Part shown: in pieces, positions 9,370 to 53,967 of the stretch | Position numbering within the stretch: the stretch's first letter is position 1 | How the letters are laid out: every line of letters starts with the position of its first letter | Assembly (NCBI RefSeq): GCF_007671685.1 | Contig: NZ_VCNL01000003.1 | Span: 62,001-126,000 of the forward strand | Direction: 5' to 3' | From: Halorubrum salsamenti | GTDB taxonomy: Archaea > Halobacteriota > Halobacteria > Halobacteriales > Haloferacaceae | Length of the DNA stretch: 64,000 nt | Position numbers and translations under genes: made by a program | The notes under the pieces: generated by a model | Told to the model about the DNA's origin: nothing | The model's database searches: none | What the model saw: only the letters and a program-made list of their open reading frames with translations

Positions 9370-10401
9370 TTACGACCGGATCGCCGCGCTGGCGATCCCG
9401 ACCGGCTCGCCGTCGGAACCGACGGAGAGGCTGACCTGCCAGCCCTCGTCGACGGAGGCGATCCGGACCGCGTCGTGGCGGCGGTCCGGCTCCGTTCTGC
9501 GGTACAGTTCGAGGACCAGCGGCAGCGTCGGGAACCGCCCGTCGCGAGCCGTGAGCGCGCAGTCGGTCACCAGGACGGTCGCGCTCTCGGCCGTCGAATC
9601 GGGATCGCGGGCGTACCCGTCGACGACGCCGGCCCCCGCGAGGCGCTCGAACGCGCCGGAGACCGGATCGTCCGCGGAGACGGGCGGGAGCCCCGCCGCC
9701 GCGGCCGCCAGCACCGCCGCCTGTTCGTCGGGGGTAAGCCGCCGGTGGAGGGCCTCGGCCATCGCTTCGAGGAGGCACAGACAGAGGTCGTCCGGATCGC
9801 TCACGCGCTCGGCGAGGTCGAAGTACGCGTCCATCACCGCCGACTCGGCGTCGGCGTGACCGCCGGCCGACAGCGCCTCGAACACCGCGGCCGCCGCCTC
9901 GTGGCAGAACTCGACGCGGTCTCGCCCGCGGTCGGTGTCGCGGCCGCTCGGCTCGCCCGGGTCGTCCCGACCGTCCCGACCGTCGGTTCCCCCTACTCCC
10001 TCCACCCCCTCCACCACGGGGTCGGAGAGGCTCCACTCGGACGCCTCCGCGGCCGAGAATCGGCGTACGTCGTGCGGGTCGTTGGACGGCTCGTCGGGTC
10101 CGTCCGGCCCGCGGGCGTCGCCGGCGGACTCGACCGCCGAACCGTCGTCCGCGAACTCCTGTCGAACGATCACGTCGTAGTACGGCAGCCGCGGGTCGTA
10201 CCGGCGAAGCGCGTCGCGGTACTGCTCGGTGGCGCGCGCCGCGGCACGCGCGACTGGCCGGCTCTCGAACCGGAGCCCGGCGGCCGGGACCGGTCGGTCG
10301 CCGTACCGCGCGCAGACGAGCGAGTACTCGCCCGTCTCGCTCGCGAGCGATTCGATGTGGTCGCTGATCTCGAGTAGCGTCGTTCCGATCACGTGTGTCA
10401 C
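9370..10401 (-). CDS. conserved haloarchaeal protein of unknown function
   Basis: 343 residues. The N-terminus (MTHVIGTTLLEISDHIESLASETGEYSLVC) and the C-terminus (VRIASVDEGWQVSLSVGSDGEPVGIASAA) look ordered, with a long low-complexity acidic linker in the middle (about residues 95-165). No transmembrane segment, no catalytic motif I recognise; the helical part EQAAVLAAAAAGLPPVSADDPV could be a winged-helix or regulator fold. I believe it belongs to a DUF restricted to haloarchaea (DUF7551-like), from memory only. It ends the minus-strand series after the iron-uptake operon, 13 bases downstream of the FAD oxidoreductase, so it may be cotranscribed. Confidence 0.6.
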   Translation of the reverse strand: MTHVIGTTLLEISDHIESLASETGEYSLVCARYGDRPVPAAGLRFESRPVARAAARATEQYRDALRRYDPRLPYYDVIVRQEFADDGSAVESAGDARGPDGPDEPSNDPHDVRRFSAAEASEWSLSDPVVEGVEGVGGTDGRDGRDDPGEPSGRDTDRGRDRVEFCHEAAAAVFEALSAGGHADAESAVMDAYFDLAERVSDPDDLCLCLLEAMAEALHRRLTPDEQAAVLAAAAAGLPPVSADDPVSGAFERLAGAGVVDGYARDPDSTAESATVLVTDCALTARDGRFPTLPLVLELYRRTEPDRRHDAVRIASVDEGWQVSLSVGSDGEPVGIASAAIRS

Positions 10402-10414
10402 CTCCGCGCGCGGC

Positions 10415-11263
10415 TCACTCCTCCAGACTCGGGTGGGTCTCCTGCGGGTCCGGGTGCGGCGCCGCGAACCGCTCTCGGATCGCCTCGCGCGACTGCTCCT
10501 CGCGCTCGCGGCGTTCGTCCGCGTCTATCTCCTCGCAGCCCGGCGGCACCTGACGGTCCCGGTCGGTGAAGTACCCCTCGGGCGCGACCCAGTCGTGGTA
10601 GAACCCGCGGTCGTCCTCCTCCAAGATCGTCACGCCGACCTCGGCGCCGTGGCCCGCGCACACCGCCGCCTGATGCGGCTTCTCCGCGAGTCGACCGGCC
10701 GCGTACAGCCCGTCGACGCCGGTCCGCCCGCGCTCGTCGGTGTCGACGTACGACTTCCCGCGGTCGAGGATGCCGACCCCCTCGACGTCCGCGAGATAGC
10801 CGACTTCGTTCTTCGTCGCCGCGACGACGTACCGGGTCCGGATCGGGGCGCGGGGGTCGTCGCCGTCGCCCGCGCCGTCGCCGTCGCCCGCGCCGTCAGC
10901 GTCGACTTCGACGGCGAACCGGGCGTCGTCGTCCGGGTCGGAACCGCCCGCGCCGCCGGAGTCGACCGCCGAGACGCGCGTCGCTCGGTCGTCGAGCCGG
11001 TCTGCGCCCGCGGTCGCGGCCTGCTCGGCGAGGAGGTCGAGCAGGCGCCGGGCGTCCACGCCGAGCGGGAAGCCGGGGAAGTTCTCCAGGTGCGCGTTCC
11101 GGCGCAGGAGCGACCCGCCGTCATCGACCACGAGCGTGTCGAGCCCCTGCCGGGCCGTGAACACGGCCGCGGAGAGGCCGGCGACGCCGCCGCCGACGAC
11201 GACCACGTCGCGAGAGCGGTGCGGGTCGGTCTCGTCGTCCGCGGACATCTCGTCACCGTTCAT
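10415..11263 (-). CDS. FAD-dependent pyridine nucleotide-disulfide-type oxidoreductase, iron operon II
   Basis: A 282-residue thioredoxin-reductase-like flavoprotein. Rossmann motif VVVVGGGVAGLSAA (Gly24-Gly29), then NAHLENFPGFPLGVD and the C-terminal FAD motif GVDGLYAAGRL. The redox CxxC of true thioredoxin reductase is absent, so it is not a thioredoxin reductase in function. Its place at the end of a binding-protein operon and the paralogue at 16298-17272 suggest ferric-siderophore or heme reduction, which is inference. The ATG at 11263 overlaps the stop of the preceding 50-residue gene (ATGA), so translation is probably coupled. A later ATG at 11248 is possible. Confidence 0.8.
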   Translation of the reverse strand: MNGDEMSADDETDPHRSRDVVVVGGGVAGLSAAVFTARQGLDTLVVDDGGSLLRRNAHLENFPGFPLGVDARRLLDLLAEQAATAGADRLDDRATRVSAVDSGGAGGSDPDDDARFAVEVDADGAGDGDGAGDGDDPRAPIRTRYVVAATKNEVGYLADVEGVGILDRGKSYVDTDERGRTGVDGLYAAGRLAEKPHQAAVCAGHGAEVGVTILEEDDRGFYHDWVAPEGYFTDRDRQVPPGCEEIDADERREREEQSREAIRERFAAPHPDPQETHPSLEE

Positions 11264-11412
11264 CGGTCGATCCCCCGTGCGAGTCGCGGATCGTCGCTGT
11301 CGATCGCCATATCCCTCGGCGCGCGCGAGCCGTCGTAGTCGCTTCGGTCCGGGACCGGTTCGACTTCGGTTGCTCCCGCGGCCTCGTCGGGACGGGGGCA
11401 CCGCGCGCTCAT
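11260..11412 (-). CDS. 50-residue protein, iron operon II
   Basis: A small acidic protein, starting MSARCPRPDEAAGATEVE and ending DPRLARGIDR. It is supported mainly by position: its ATG overlaps the stop of the 58-residue gene by ATGA (11409-11412) and its own stop overlaps the start of the FAD oxidoreductase by ATGA (11260-11263). Such a chain of four-base overlaps is unlikely to be chance. No domain recognised; one cysteine. It may serve the transporter or simply relay translation to the oxidoreductase. Confidence 0.6.
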   Translation of the reverse strand: MSARCPRPDEAAGATEVEPVPDRSDYDGSRAPRDMAIDSDDPRLARGIDR

Positions 11413-11585
11413 CGCCGCACCCGAACCGGTCGTTCCGCCGCGATGAACGGCTCGTCGCTGTCGGCGGCTGCGAACGCGAGGTCGCCGTCGGCGCCGCGTT
11501 CGACCCGCCACGTCGGGAGATCCGGCACGTCGTACGCCGTCGGGTCGCCGAATGCGGCCGCGACCGTCCACTCGCGGGCCCGCAT
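11409..11585 (-). CDS. 58-residue protein, iron operon II
   Basis: Reads MRAREWTVAAAFGDPTAYDV near its start and EPFIAAERPVRVRR at its end. The ATG at 11585 directly abuts the TAG stop of the binding-protein gene (11586-11588), and its TGA overlaps the ATG of the next small gene. The sequence looks like a compact beta-rich peptide (W-T-V, W-R-V-E, F-I-A-A-E-R-P-V-R-V) rather than random coding shadow, and codon third positions are G/C-rich in this frame. Function unknown; a small accessory factor of siderophore or heme handling is conceivable. Confidence 0.65.
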   Translation of the reverse strand: MRAREWTVAAAFGDPTAYDVPDLPTWRVERGADGDLAFAAADSDEPFIAAERPVRVRR

Positions 11586-12836
11586 CTACAGGTCCCCGTT
11601 GATGACGTCCGCGACGCGCCCGCGGTCGAACAGCCGTTCGTCCTCGGGGATCTCCGGGTACGGTCCCGACTCGTACCGCGGCCACGCGCCGAACTCGTCG
11701 GGGTAGAGCTGCTTCGCCGTCATCTCCAGCTGGAAGAGGTTGAGTATCGGCCCCTGATACCGGGCGCCCTGCGGGTGGATGCGGTCGTTCTGAACCGCCG
11801 TGACCTGCGAGCCGACGGCGTCCTCCTCGAAGGCGGCCCGCCGCCCGGCCATATCCGTTCCCGGCTCCATGCCGCCGAGGTAGAGGATCACGTCGGGGTC
11901 GGCCTCGAGTATCGTCTCGAAGTCGACGACCGTCCCGGACTCGACGCTCCCCTCGAACGCGTCGCGCGGCCCGAGCGGGCGCGTGTGCGACGTGAGGAAC
12001 CCGGGGTTGCTCAGGGTGTACGCGTAGATCTGTTCGATGTCGGCCGCGGCGATCATGATCGCGGTCGGGCGCTCCTCCTCCGGCGGTAGGCGGTCCTCGA
12101 TCGTCGACAGGAGGCCCTCGCGGACCTCGGCGAGCGCCTCGTACCGCTCGCGCTCCCGGAACGCCTCGGCGACGCGCTCGAACTGCTCCCACAGCCCGTA
12201 GTACTGGTAGCCGTCGGCCCACTCCTCGGCGGGCTCCTGATGGCGGTCGCTGAGGGAGTTGCCGAACCACGGCGAGACGTTCTCGGCGATCTCGTCGATA
12301 TCTTCTCGGTCCCACCCCTCCAGTTGCGTCACCCACGCGGGATCCGCGAGGTGGATATCGCTGTCGAGCTCGTACAGCTTCTCCTTGTCCGGCTCCCACG
12401 AGGAGTAGAGCCCGGACCAGTCGAGCGAGACGCCCGGCAGGCGCTCGACGTACTGGTTCCAGAGCCCGTCGTAGTAGTCGGGCGCGTGCAGCGCGGTGAC
12501 GTCGTCCCCCCGCCCGAGCGCGAACGCCATGTCCGCGTGGTGGGTGAGCCGCGTGAACACCGTCTCCGGCGGCGACTCGAAGGTCACCTCGCCCGTCGGC
12601 GAGATCGACGCCGTGTAGCTCGCGTCGCCTTCGGACTGTGAGTCCTCCGAGCCGTCGTCGGTCGAAGCGTCGTCGGCCGAGCCGTTCTCGGTCGCGCCGT
12701 CGTCGGACGAATCGGGTTCGGCGCCGTCGCCGCCGGTGCACCCGGCGAGGAGACCGCCGAGGGCGACGGTGCCGCCGTACTTGATCGTCTCTCTTCGCGT
12801 CGGCGTCTCGCGGTCAGTCGTGTCGTTGGTGTCCAT
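11586..12836 (-). CDS. iron-siderophore-type ABC transporter substrate-binding lipoprotein (operon II, second)
   Basis: 416 residues. Tat-type signal with RRETIKYGGTVALGGLLAGC: twin arginine, hydrophobic stretch and lipobox LAGC, so exported folded and lipid-anchored at the outer face of the membrane. A low-complexity acidic linker (about residues 36-72) is followed by a cluster A-2 / BtuF-FepB-like fold with ADPDVILYLGG and AVQNDRIHPQGARYQGPILNLFQ. Paralogues are the genes at 12839-14071 and 17269-18582. Expected ligand is a ferric siderophore or related chelate; not provable by eye. It begins two bases after the stop of the first binding protein of this operon. Confidence 0.88.
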   Translation of the reverse strand: MDTNDTTDRETPTRRETIKYGGTVALGGLLAGCTGGDGAEPDSSDDGATENGSADDASTDDGSEDSQSEGDASYTASISPTGEVTFESPPETVFTRLTHHADMAFALGRGDDVTALHAPDYYDGLWNQYVERLPGVSLDWSGLYSSWEPDKEKLYELDSDIHLADPAWVTQLEGWDREDIDEIAENVSPWFGNSLSDRHQEPAEEWADGYQYYGLWEQFERVAEAFRERERYEALAEVREGLLSTIEDRLPPEEERPTAIMIAAADIEQIYAYTLSNPGFLTSHTRPLGPRDAFEGSVESGTVVDFETILEADPDVILYLGGMEPGTDMAGRRAAFEEDAVGSQVTAVQNDRIHPQGARYQGPILNLFQLEMTAKQLYPDEFGAWPRYESGPYPEIPEDERLFDRGRVADVINGDL

Positions 12837-14074: not shown

Positions 14075-14090
14075 TTTAGGCTAGCCTAAA
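14075..14090. promoter_or_regulatory. iron-box-like operator, operon II proximal site
   Basis: TTTAGGCTAGCCTAAA, a perfect 16-base palindrome five bases upstream of the ATG at 14071 and downstream of the TATA element, so over the expected transcription start. Matches the sites at 14111, 18587, 18623, 19890, 20376 and 52677. Confidence 0.85.
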
Positions 14091-14110: not shown

Positions 14111-14126
14111 TTTAGGTCGGCCTAAA
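14111..14126. promoter_or_regulatory. iron-box-like operator, operon II distal site
   Basis: TTTAGGTCGGCCTAAA, upstream of the TATA element. Centre-to-centre distance to the proximal site is 36 bases, identical to the pair in front of operon I. Confidence 0.85.
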
Positions 14127-16301: not shown

Positions 16302-17272
16302 CGCGCCCCCTCCGCGTACGCGGCGATATCCTCGTCGTCCATCGCGTCGAGCAGCGCCTCGGCGCCGTGCGCGTCGACGACGGCGTCCGGGTCGAGGTGA
16401 CCGGCGAGCGCGCGCCGGCCCTCGGCCGCCCGCGCCTCCGCCTCGTCGGCGTCGACGTACGCCGACAGCGCCGAATCGATCGCCGCCTCGCGGACACGGG
16501 AGAACCGCTCCGCGTCCGGATCGACGGGGGCGTCGGCGTGTCGTTCGTCGAACCACTCGACCCAGCGCTCGCGGTCGGCCCACTCCTCGTCGCGCTCGGC
16601 CTCGCGGCGCACCCAGTCGACGCCCTCGGCCGCCGCGGGCCACCAGCCGTCCGCGATCCGCGCGTCCGTGACGACCCGGCGGGCGACGCGGGCGCCGCGT
16701 CCGGCCGCCGTGACCGCCTGTCGGTCGGCCTCGGAGGGAGAGGCGACGTAGAGCCCCTCGACCGGCGTCGTCCCGTCGGGATCGGCGTACTCCCGGTCGA
16801 AGTGCTCGTGGACCTCGCCGCCGTGGTCGTGGGTCTCGAACATCGCCGCGTCGTCGTCGAGGCCGCGGAGGTACTCGCCGTCGTACCGGGTCGCCGCCAC
16901 CACGCGTCGGGCGGTGACCGGCTCGCCCTCCTGCGGGGTGACGCGGAAGCGCGTCTCCTCCCCGTCCTCATGCCGCCGTTCGACCGACTCGACGAGGTCG
17001 TCGACGAGCGCGCCGCCCGCGCGGTCGACGTGGTCGTGCAGGAGGTCGTAGAACGTCTCGACGTCGATCCCGGCCGGGAAACCGAGGTAGTTCCCGAGGT
17101 GCGCACAGCGCGCGATCGACGACCGACCGCGGTCGAACACGGCGACGTCGCCCCCCTCGCGGGCGAGGAAGACGGCGGCCGAGCAGCCGGCGGGACCGCC
17201 GCCGACCACGACCGCGTCGTAGTCGACCTCCCCGGCGGCCTCGTCGAGGTCGAGGTCGAGGTCGTCGCTCAT
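16298..17272 (-). CDS. FAD-dependent oxidoreductase, iron operon I
   Basis: 324 residues. VVVGGGPAGCSAAVF (Gly24-Gly29) is the FAD-binding Rossmann motif, followed by CAHLGNYLGFPAGID, equivalent to the same block in the paralogue at 10415-11263. No CxxC active site. The C-terminal part (EEWADRERWVEWFDERH and DEAEARAAEGRRALAGH) is a helical extension absent from the shorter paralogue. ATG at 17272 overlaps the binding-protein stop by ATGA; stop overlaps the permease start the same way. Being tucked between binding protein and permease genes, it probably acts on the imported iron chelate, e.g. by reduction; this is inference. Confidence 0.82.
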   Translation of the reverse strand: MSDDLDLDLDEAAGEVDYDAVVVGGGPAGCSAAVFLAREGGDVAVFDRGRSSIARCAHLGNYLGFPAGIDVETFYDLLHDHVDRAGGALVDDLVESVERRHEDGEETRFRVTPQEGEPVTARRVVAATRYDGEYLRGLDDDAAMFETHDHGGEVHEHFDREYADPDGTTPVEGLYVASPSEADRQAVTAAGRGARVARRVVTDARIADGWWPAAAEGVDWVRREAERDEEWADRERWVEWFDERHADAPVDPDAERFSRVREAAIDSALSAYVDADEAEARAAEGRRALAGHLDPDAVVDAHGAEALLDAMDDEDIAAYAEGAR

Positions 17273-18586: not shown

Positions 18587-18602
18587 TTTAGGCCTCCCTA
18601 AA
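18587..18602. promoter_or_regulatory. iron-box-like operator, operon I proximal site
   Basis: TTTAGGCCTCCCTAAA, between the TATA element (ATTTAATG on the minus strand, about 18603-18612) and the ATG at 18582. Inverted hexamers match all other sites; the four-base spacer is free. Confidence 0.85.
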
Positions 18603-18835: not shown

Positions 18836-19381
18836 ATGAACACGCAGAAGGAGACTCGGCAGCACGCCGGCACCGTCGAAGAGAACGCCCTCAGACTCGA
18901 ACCCGAGAAGGCGGAACAGATCATCGAGGCGCTGAACGTCGACCTCGCGGACGCGTACGTCCTCTACCACCAGCTCCACAAACACCACTGGAACGTCGAG
19001 GGCGCGGAGTTCCTCGACGTCCACGTGTTCCTCCAAGAGGTGTACGAGGACGTCGAGGCGGCCGCCGACGAACTCGCCGAGCGGCTGCAGGCGCTCGGCG
19101 GCGTGCCGCACGCCAGCATGACGACGCTCGCTGAGAACGCCACCGTCGAGGCGGAAGACGAGGACGTGTACGACGTCCGCACGTCGCTCGGGAACGACCT
19201 AGAGATGATGGGCGACATCATCGAGAGCTACCGGGAGCACATCGAGCTCGCGGAGGGCCTCGGCGACTACGCGACCGCGGAGATGCTCCGCGAGCAGCTG
19301 GAGGGGATCGAGGAGCACGCGCACCACATCGAGCACTACCTCGAGGACGACACGCTCGTCGTGGAGTCCGCGACGAAGTGA
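18836..19381 (+). CDS. dpsA: DNA-protecting ferritin-like protein DpsA
   Basis: 181-residue Dps/ferritin-superfamily protein. Dps dodecamers oxidise and store Fe(II) and shield DNA from peroxide damage; in Halobacterium DpsA is induced by iron and oxidative conditions. The inter-subunit ferroxidase ligands are visible in HKHHWNVEG (His50/His51), FLDVHVFLQEVYEDVE (His63, Glu68, Asp72). Four long helices account for the whole chain, and length fits the archaeal family. The upstream region is A/T-rich with TTTTAATATT and ACTTATAAG, two candidate TATA elements, and the degenerate iron box at 18765. Opposite orientation to operon I, with which it shares the 253-base gap. Confidence 0.96.
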   Translation: MNTQKETRQHAGTVEENALRLEPEKAEQIIEALNVDLADAYVLYHQLHKHHWNVEGAEFLDVHVFLQEVYEDVEAAADELAERLQALGGVPHASMTTLAENATVEAEDEDVYDVRTSLGNDLEMMGDIIESYREHIELAEGLGDYATAEMLREQLEGIEEHAHHIEHYLEDDTLVVESATK

Positions 19382-19889: not shown

Positions 19890-19905
19890 TTTAGGTGGAC
19901 CTAAA
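19890..19905. promoter_or_regulatory. iron-box-like operator of the CxxC/amphi-Trp operon
   Basis: TTTAGGTGGACCTAAA, perfect hexamer pair, between the TATA element and the ATG at 19881. Confidence 0.85.
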
Positions 19906-19931: not shown

Positions 19932-20372
19932 TCACTCCGCGCGGCTCGGCGAGACGCCGAGGCCATCGGGACGGCCCTCGGCGTCGACGTCGAGGTCCTC
20001 GAACAGCAGGTGGGCGAGCCGTTCGGCGACCTCGGGACTGATCAGTCCGGCCATCTCCATCGCCTCGCGCTCGTGCGCGTCGAGGTCGAGTACGTCGCGG
20101 AAGAACCACGAGAGCGCGACGTACGTCTCGTGGAGATCGCTCGCGCGCTCCCGGCCGGTGTCGGTGAGCGTCACCCCCTCGTACGGCTCGCGAGCGACGA
20201 GCCCGTCGGCCGCGAGCCGCTGGAGCATCTCCGTCGTCGCCGCCGGAGAACGATCGAGCATCTCGGCGATCCGCCCGGGGGAGATCGGCGTCCCCGCCCG
20301 GTGTTCCGCGATGTACAGCGCGAGGAGGTACCGGACCCTCCGCGTGGAGCCCGGTTCGCCGACGTGCGCCAT
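19932..20372 (-). CDS. DtxR-family metal-dependent transcriptional repressor (Idr/SirR-like)
   Basis: 146 residues. N-terminal winged helix (TRRVRYLLALYIAEHRAGTPISPGRI, then LDRSPAATTEMLQRLAADGLVAREPYEGVTLT), followed by the dimerisation/metal domain with LHETYVALSWFFRDVLDLDAHEREAMEMAGLISPEVAERL. This matches iron- or manganese-sensing DtxR proteins; it lacks the C-terminal SH3-like domain, so it is the short type. Its own promoter carries TTTAGGTCTCCCTAAA at 20376-20391, which suggests autorepression, and the same dyad is on the iron-uptake operons. It is therefore the most likely regulator of the island, though haloarchaea carry several DtxR paralogues. Confidence 0.9.
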   Translation of the reverse strand: MAHVGEPGSTRRVRYLLALYIAEHRAGTPISPGRIAEMLDRSPAATTEMLQRLAADGLVAREPYEGVTLTDTGRERASDLHETYVALSWFFRDVLDLDAHEREAMEMAGLISPEVAERLAHLLFEDLDVDAEGRPDGLGVSPSRAE

Positions 20373-52676: not shown

Positions 52677-52692
52677 TTTAGGTTTTCCTAAA
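52677..52692. promoter_or_regulatory. iron-box-like operator upstream of the ABC ATPase
   Basis: TTTAGGTTTTCCTAAA, perfect match to the hexamer pair used in the island 33 kb away. It lies 52 bases before the ATG at 52744, farther than the others, perhaps over the TATA/BRE region. Confidence 0.8.
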
Positions 52693-52743: not shown

Positions 52744-53967
52744 ATGTCTCACACGCAATCAGTCGAACGGACGCAGTCGGCTCGGGACGCGAGCGAGTCG
52801 CCCGCGGACACGAACGAATCGGGTACCGACGCGGGCGAATCGCCCGCCGCGGCGTCCGCGGACCCCGTGCTGTCGCTGTCCGGCGTGACGAAGGATTTCG
52901 GCCCGGAGACCGCCGTCGACGGCGTCTCCCTCGACGTCAAGCCGGGAGAGCTGCTCACCTTCCTCGGCCCGTCCGGCTGCGGGAAGACGACCACGCTCCG
53001 GACCATCGCCGGGTTGGAGGAGCCGACCGAGGGGCAGATCACGCTCGGCGACGAGACCGTCTCCGGCGACGGCGCGTTCGTCCCGCCCGAGCAGCGCGAC
53101 GTGGGGATCGTCTTCCAGAACTTCGCGCTGTTCCCCCACCTCACCGTCCGGGAGAACATCGCGTTCGGGCTCGACGACGGCGCCGACGCGAACGCGGCCC
53201 GCGTCGACGAGATGCTCGACCTCGTCGACTTGCCCGAACACGGCGAGAAGACGCCGGACCAGCTCTCCGGGGGACAAAAGCAGCGCGTCGCGCTCGCGCG
53301 GTCGCTCGCGCCCGAGCCCGACATACTCCTCCTCGACGAGCCGTTCTCGAACCTCGACGTGCGGCTCCGCGTCGAGATGCGCGAGGAAGTCCGACAGATC
53401 CTGAAGGCGGCCGGCGTCACCGCCGTCTCCGTCACCCACGACCAGGAGGAGGCGCTCTCCATCTCCGACCGCGTCGCCGTGATGAACGACGGCCAGATCG
53501 AGCAGGTCGGCCGTCCCGAGTCGGTGTTCGAACGCCCCGAGTCGAAGTTCGTCGCCTCCTTCCTCGGACGGGCGTCGTTCCTCGAGGGGCACCTCCGCGA
53601 CGGGAAAGTCGAGACGGGAGTCGGCCGGTTCGACGCCGTCACGCTGGAGGGGTACGACACCGTCTACGACGGGGCGCCCGTCGACGTGCTGGTGCGGCCC
53701 GACGACCTCCGGGCGACCCCCGCGAGCGCCGAACTGGCCGACGGAACCATCGTCTCGCGGCAGTACGTCGGTCCCTCGTTCATCTACCGGGTCGAACTCG
53801 ACTCCGGAGAGGTCGTCCACTGCCTCCACAACCACGTCGAGGAGTTCGAACTCGACTCCGGAGAGGTCGTCCACTGCCTCCACAACCACGTCGAGGAGTT
53901 CGACCTCGACGAGCCGGTGAACCTCGAACTCACCGCCGCTCACCCGCTGGCCTGGTACCCGCGATAG
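52744..53967 (+). CDS. ABC transporter ATP-binding protein, FbpC/PotA-like, with tandem-duplicated C-terminus
   Basis: 407 residues. After an acidic 40-residue leader: Walker A GPSGCGKTT, signature LSGGQKQRVALARSL, Walker B ILLLDEP, H-loop SVTHDQEEA; then an OB/TOBE-like C-terminal domain as in ferric-iron (FbpC) and spermidine importers. At the C-terminus an 18-residue segment (ELDSGEVVHCLHNHVEEF) occurs twice, DNA-exact for 54 bases (53793-53846 and 53847-53900). The iron-box at 52677 suggests ferric transport. No permease or binding protein gene follows; it sits alone after purL. The duplication would shift the TOBE fold. Confidence 0.9.
   Translation: MSHTQSVERTQSARDASESPADTNESGTDAGESPAAASADPVLSLSGVTKDFGPETAVDGVSLDVKPGELLTFLGPSGCGKTTTLRTIAGLEEPTEGQITLGDETVSGDGAFVPPEQRDVGIVFQNFALFPHLTVRENIAFGLDDGADANAARVDEMLDLVDLPEHGEKTPDQLSGGQKQRVALARSLAPEPDILLLDEPFSNLDVRLRVEMREEVRQILKAAGVTAVSVTHDQEEALSISDRVAVMNDGQIEQVGRPESVFERPESKFVASFLGRASFLEGHLRDGKVETGVGRFDAVTLEGYDTVYDGAPVDVLVRPDDLRATPASAELADGTIVSRQYVGPSFIYRVELDSGEVVHCLHNHVEEFELDSGEVVHCLHNHVEEFDLDEPVNLELTAAHPLAWYPR

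Follow-up and report, generated by a model that had tools for sequence, protein, structure and literature searches.

The question raised by the present locus is whether two very short frames, chained by overlapping start and stop codons, encode small proteins. In Halorubrum salsamenti, frames of 58 and 50 codons (SP58 and SP50) stand between a gene for a substrate-binding protein (BP3) and one for a thioredoxin-reductase-like FAD/NAD(P) oxidoreductase (FADb) in an operon devoted to iron. A first interpretation, made by a model from the letters alone (the sequence-only reading), had taken both frames for small proteins. Our analysis of the surrounding 64,000 nucleotides, hereafter the window, and of related haloarchaeal genomes gives a different answer for each frame: SP58 is probably a folded protein of the iron operon, and SP50 a translated spacer with an internal promoter and a coupling mini-ORF. 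To this combined reading we assign a probability of about 0.7.

Organization of operon II and its gene chain

The operon under study, operon II, occupies the minus strand between 14071 and 9370 (Table 1). The species that supply the nearest relatives of FADb all belong to Halorubrum, and other genomes of the genus have the same loci. The stop codon of BP3 (TAG, 11588..11586) is followed with a gap of 0 nt by the ATG of SP58 (11585..11583). The TGA of SP58 (11411..11409) overlaps the ATG of SP50 (11412..11410) in a 4-base ATGA, and a second 4-base ATGA joins the TGA of SP50 (11262..11260) to the ATG of FADb (11263..11261), exactly as the sequence-only reading had placed them. A stop codon abuts the SP58 ATG in 26 of the 28 Halorubrum loci compared (25 times as TAG-ATG and once as TAA-ATG), and a gap of 0 nt to a binding-protein stop is found in 19 further loci outside operon II, nearly all from other genera. 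The double overlap from SP58 through SP50 to FADb also recurs in Halorubrum, with an SP50 of 35-66 codons. Since both the zero gap and the double overlap recur across loci, this arrangement is more than chance.

Table 1. Genes and sequence elements of operon II, in positions of the window.
Feature	Position	Strand	Basis
Distal DtxR-type iron box TTAGGTCGGCCTAA before operon II, 36 bp from its partner	14112..14125		exact palindrome
Proximal DtxR-type iron box TTAGGCTAGCCTAA, 4 bp before the ATG of BP2	14076..14089		exact palindrome
BP2, first siderophore-type substrate-binding lipoprotein, 410 aa	12839..14071	-	Peripla_BP_2 E=3e-14
BP3, second substrate-binding protein, 416 aa, stop abuts SP58 ATG	11586..12836	-	Peripla_BP_2 E=1e-11
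SP58, conserved protein, 58 aa	11409..11585	-	conservation, selection, predicted fold
SP50, bridging frame between SP58 and FADb, 50 codons	11260..11412	-	pN/pS 0.92-1.17; pLDDT 64, pTM 0.16
Invariant GACCGAAG, BRE-like, -39 to -32 of the internal ATG	11342..11349	-	26/26 Halorubrum loci
ACTAC, weak TATA-like element, -29 to -25, invariant T at -27	11335..11339	-	alignment and A/T peak of upstream regions
Mini-ORF, 16 codons (MAIDSDDPRLARGIDR), internal leaderless-type ATG, ATGA overlap with FADb	11260..11310	-	26/26 loci
FADb, thioredoxin-reductase-like FAD/NAD(P) oxidoreductase, 282 aa	10415..11263	-	Pyr_redox_2 E=4e-10; TRX_reduct E=1e-19, below cut-off
DUF7552-DUF7551 protein, encoded at the end of operon II	9370..10401	-	domain match

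A neighbouring operon I (18582 to 14217) codes for a binding protein, an FAD protein related to FADb, a FecCD permease and an ABC ATPase. The start of its FAD gene overlaps the binding-protein stop by 4 bases (17269-17272), with no small frame in between. The genes around SP58 match the families of siderophore ABC-uptake operons (Peripla_BP_2, FecCD, ABC ATPase), to which the present locus adds SP58, a pair of FAD proteins resembling thioredoxin reductase and the DUF7552-DUF7551 protein.

Relatives were searched for the same frames, and both recur at the same position in Halorubrum, with one or both lost in some members of the genus. The sequence-only reading had staked its case on this point, naming loss of the frames beside conserved flanking genes as what would count against it. 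Such loss does occur (both frames or parts of them in G109-G111, G121 and G125, SP50 in L017 and L024), and most carriers of the operon keep SP58. In G109, G110 and G111 the orthologous BP3 is directly followed by FADb, both small frames being absent, and in G112 BP3 is followed by the DUF7552-DUF7551 gene. A deletion in H. persicum (G125) joins the start of SP58 to SP50, and another in G121 leaves a 28-codon remnant. SP50 is absent from L017/L065 and L024/L073, and there SP58 directly overlaps FADb. With flanking genes conserved around these losses, SP58 and SP50 are both dispensable in some lineages. FADb itself is lost in L019, L022 and L025 and SP58 is kept, which ties SP58 more closely to the binding proteins than to FADb. 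In L025, the start of SP50 is fused to the last residues of FADb.

Conservation, selection and predicted structure of SP58

Besides this genome, 27 further Halorubrum genomes contain full-length copies of SP58 (58/58 residues, 74-95% identity), and both length and sequence are conserved in most Halorubrum that carry the operon. Of 391 class genomes, a profile search found the protein in 97, and of the 86 haloarchaeal genera sampled, in 31; a phylum-wide search gave no matches outside haloarchaea in the phylum sample. By a simple pairwise count on short, non-independent sequences, pN/pS among the Halorubrum copies (n=28) is 0.36, compared with 0.38-0.42 for FADb, a value that indicates purifying selection.

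AlphaFold, run on SP58 with 47 sequences, returned a model with a pLDDT of 90.8, in which a helix (residues 2-12) and a short helix (15-18) are followed by three strands (26-30, 36-40 and 46-50). Residues M1, R4, P15, A50 and P53 are invariant, and A3, W6, A9, P21, P24, R57 and R58 nearly so. Purifying selection, the predicted fold and class-wide conservation led us to reject a chance open frame. A metal-binding peptide was rejected as well, there being no invariant Cys or His.

SP58 has no match in Pfam, NCBIfam or the PDB, divergent homologues having also been tried in Pfam and NCBIfam, and a Foldseek search of the model against the PDB gave nothing significant (best E 1.0). The search for paralogues in its own genome returned just weak matches within long unrelated frames. 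On these comparisons and on the model, SP58 is a real, conserved and selected small protein, predicted to be folded, and it founds an unnamed haloarchaeal protein family. The view that both frames are too small for routine gene calling was mistaken for SP58, since RefSeq annotates its orthologues in Natrinema versiforme and Halobellus limi as hypothetical proteins of 57 aa.

Iron boxes and DtxR-type control

The window holds 7 exact palindromes of the form TTAGGN4CCTAA, whereas 100 shuffles gave 0, and a stricter 16-mer (TTTAGGN4CCTAAA) has only 14 occurrences in the 3.67-Mb genome. Pairs of these boxes precede both operons, at 14076/14112 and at 18588/18624. Two others, at 19891 and 20377, flank a gene for a DtxR-type regulator (19932-20372, minus strand; Fe_dep_repress E=1e-10), one of them just upstream of its ATG. 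This gene adjoins dps, a Dps-type ferritin being encoded nearby at 18836-19381 (plus strand). The regulator probably governs operons I and II.

With boxes before the operons and a DtxR-family regulator beside them, the locus has two sequence marks of the haloarchaeal DtxR-type iron regulon. It resembles the FerR/Idr regulon as that is described through PMC11349517 (Leyn and Rodionov 2015), in which palindromic boxes stand before siderophore ABC-transporter genes, with a DtxR-type regulator and dps nearby. In the literature searched, outside of which lay the text of Leyn and Rodionov (2015) itself, no conserved protein of 58 aa was found described as part of this regulon, and a search for small proteins linked to siderophores in Halorubrum yielded nothing useful.

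Genomic contexts and possible role of SP58

The neighbourhoods of 90 distinct SP58 homologues, very few of which come from the intact Halorubrum operon, fall into several classes. In the largest, 39 homologues follow a binding-protein gene at a distance of at most 200 nt, and in 19 of these cases the gap is 0 nt. Another 18 are standalone genes with an exact TTAGGN4CCTAA at most 400 nt upstream, and these look like a further gene of the regulon. Three homologues come after a DUF5059-cupredoxin gene in loci that also contain iron boxes, 14 lie 8-68 nt behind an XdhC/CoxI gene with no box near, one stands behind an FAD gene and the remaining 15 are in other or degraded contexts. In Natrinema versiforme, the RefSeq annotation lists three binding proteins, SP58 (with zero gap), another binding protein, an FAD oxidoreductase, a metal-dependent regulator and DpsA.

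Two minor observations concern these classes. At L144:1555-4173, L149 and L155, a large DUF5059-plastocyanin gene is directly followed by SP58 in loci with several iron boxes. At L138 and L161, damaged-looking SP58 copies with iron boxes are convergent with a gene for an FAD protein of the succinate dehydrogenase/fumarate reductase type.

The copies behind XdhC/CoxI genes (L158, L159, L162, L164, L167, L210-L212, L218, L219, L221, L223, L224 and L227) form a divergent branch, with a C-terminus like VMTAE..V.VRR as opposed to EPFI.A..PV.VRR. Several of them adjoin genes for CoxD-like AAA and VWA proteins; the names CoxI, CoxD-like and VWA denote sequence resemblance, Pfam having been used for XdhC only. 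Judged by this branch, the SP58 fold would serve at least one other pathway besides iron, and the XdhC/CoxI context may reveal the function of SP58.

The neighbourhoods also bear on the possibility that SP58 is a regulator, for example one whose conserved terminal Arg residues bind nucleic acid or the DtxR-type repressor. Such a role would suit R4, R57 and R58, which are invariant or nearly so and unusual in an acidic proteome, and some copies are indeed near DtxR and dps genes. The model, however, has no similarity to DNA-binding folds in the Foldseek search, and the commonest place of SP58 is right behind binding-protein genes, so that we consider a regulator unlikely. From its neighbourhood, our first choice for its role is an accessory in the uptake or reduction of siderophore iron, with a regulator as the second.

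SP50 as a reading frame

SP50 is of a different kind from SP58. The same pairwise count on short, non-independent sequences gives pN/pS values of 0.92 and 0.99 within two clades and of 1.17 overall, with no sign of purifying selection. The product is predicted to be disordered (pLDDT 64, pTM 0.16), and it has no match in Pfam or NCBIfam. In 21 of 26 loci the frame is uninterrupted from end to end; we did not count this openness as evidence because long frames are common in GC-rich DNA. The frame of L014 is interrupted upstream of the conserved DNA block considered in the next section, and that of L018 has the nonsense codon TAG in place of the TAC at -27, with TA kept. Both loci retain the block, the ATG and the frame of the mini-ORF downstream. 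Several of the genomes compared are multi-contig drafts, and single breaks such as that of L014 could be sequencing errors.

By sequence and by model, SP50 looks like a translated spacer and not like a selected protein. The idea that the two frames are real small proteins with a place in iron handling holds up for SP58, which is conserved, under selection, predicted to be folded and surrounded by iron genes and DtxR-type boxes, but not for SP50, a neutral and predictedly disordered frame over promoter-like invariant DNA.

Promoter-like DNA and a mini-ORF inside SP50

All 26 spacer-bearing Halorubrum loci carry GACCGAAG, a T at -27 and an in-frame ATG at fixed spacing, and the flanks of this block have 41% identity between two clades. 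CCGAAG occupies -37 to -32 in 26/26 loci, where a BRE (CGAA about 36 nt before the start) is expected. At the place of a TATA element (TTWT near -27), T(-27) is invariant and A(-26) present in 25/26, the rest being GC-rich. The Arg codon of the block is always CGA, which is rare (17 of 187 Arg codons in the operons). Where FADb (L019, L022, L025) or SP50 (L017, L024) is lost, the block is absent.

The published promoter elements of haloarchaea are a BRE (CGAAA) and a TATA element (TTWT), and in Haloferax volcanii 72% of protein transcripts are leaderless (PMC4983044). The arrangement in SP50 is similar, with elements of the BRE and TATA types before a leaderless-type start, and internal starts are a recorded class in that species; here, in contrast, the predicted start falls inside a spacer frame that overlaps its neighbours, and the transcript would begin with a mini-ORF coupled to FADb. 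Our reference was a set of 672 haloarchaeal upstream regions, taken in the window and the fetched loci from genes that were called by composition and whose starts are not mapped TSSs. These regions show a CGAA peak at -37/-36 and enrichment of A/T from -29 to -25 and of T at -1, and CCGAAG starts between -39 and -36 in 13 of them, versus 1 and 0 at two control distances. A promoter matrix trained on composition-called starts ranks each internal site among the top 2-4.4% of ATGs, the CTAC part being weak. Because each site alone is only a moderate match, the case for a promoter rests on invariance and geometry. Halolamina homologues of FADb (L102, L104, L115) have CCGAAGTNCCTAAC upstream of their own ATG with almost identical spacing, and the SP50 block may for this reason descend from an old FADb promoter.

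The mini-ORF opened by the internal ATG has 15-24 codons, and its ATG, its frame and its overlap with FADb are kept in 26/26 loci (25 ATGA, 1 TGATG). Overlaps of identical types, of 4 or 1 nt, gave strict translational coupling in 13 of 14 stop-start pairs tested in Haloferax and E. coli (PMC6728339); unlike in those pairs, the upstream partner is here a mini-ORF of 15-24 codons and neutral sequence. The sequence-only reading held that the chain keeps ribosomes moving through the operon, and this is plausible since 26/26 loci keep a mini-ORF that overlaps FADb and such overlaps couple in Haloferax. We read the DNA of SP50 as a putative internal promoter and coupling leader for FADb.

The same features could be explained by SP50 being a pure translational bridge, its conserved block an operator or an RNA element and not a promoter. 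The total length of SP50 does vary in steps of 3 with the overlaps preserved, and the TATA-like part is weak. Yet the block stands at the exact BRE/TATA distance from an invariant ATG, and ACCGAAG is found at the same distance from the ATG in the iron-boxed operon promoters of L012, L015, L021 and L023; we therefore regard a bridge of this kind as improbable. That both frames are functional small proteins, SP50 being a fast-evolving disordered peptide with a D-R-x-x-Y ... M core, has still poorer prospects: the 21 fully open frames, the two overlaps kept across 35-66 codons and the invariance of D22, R23, Y26 and M35 in the aligned set speak for it, but pN/pS is about 1, the peptide is predicted to be disordered, the invariance lies at the nucleotide level (CGA without exception, followed by a codon that varies freely at its third position), TAG in L018 and TTC in L021 replace the Tyr codon, and L017/L065 and L024/L073 lose SP50 but keep SP58 and FADb.

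Proposed mechanism

Taking SP58 as a folded protein and SP50 as a promoter-bearing spacer, the operon may work as follows. Under iron shortage, the DtxR-type repressor would leave its boxes and the whole operon would be transcribed. Ribosomes finishing BP3 would make SP58 without a gap. SP58 would then be a small, folded and probably cytoplasmic product of a DtxR-type iron-starvation operon, and its neighbourhood points to an accessory or adaptor of siderophore-iron handling, most likely acting with the neighbouring uptake or reduction proteins. From SP58, ribosomes would pass through SP50 to FADb by termination-reinitiation, a coupling that we infer. In parallel, the weak BRE/TATA-type promoter in SP50 would give rise, at codon 35, to a leaderless transcript whose mini-ORF would load ribosomes onto the overlapping FADb start and serve also the DUF7551 gene. 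FADb would in this way be made from two sources, (i) the iron-controlled operon promoter and (ii) a weak promoter of its own.

A broader proposal is tentative, and we give it clearly less than even odds: SP58 would be an interchangeable accessory both in siderophore-iron uptake and in the maturation of CO-dehydrogenase-type molybdenum enzymes (XdhC/CoxI), and a leaderless promoter hidden in the Halorubrum spacer, with a mini-ORF that primes FAD reductase translation, would make the supply of this reductase partly independent of iron control.

Haloarchaeal iron biology gains from SP58 a concrete, conserved and as yet unnamed small protein, with iron-box control as a sharp prediction. The SP50 case is relevant to the annotation of small ORFs in GC-rich genomes: chains of overlapping starts and stops do not by themselves prove small proteins, and a neutral, disordered frame can stay open through a promoter in its DNA and the hand-over of ribosomes to the next gene.

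Elsewhere in the window, an iron box at 52678 lies upstream of a gene for an Fbp-like ABC ATPase with a TOBE domain (52744-53967, plus strand), which has a C-terminal tandem duplication containing ELDSGEVVHCLHNHVEEF twice.
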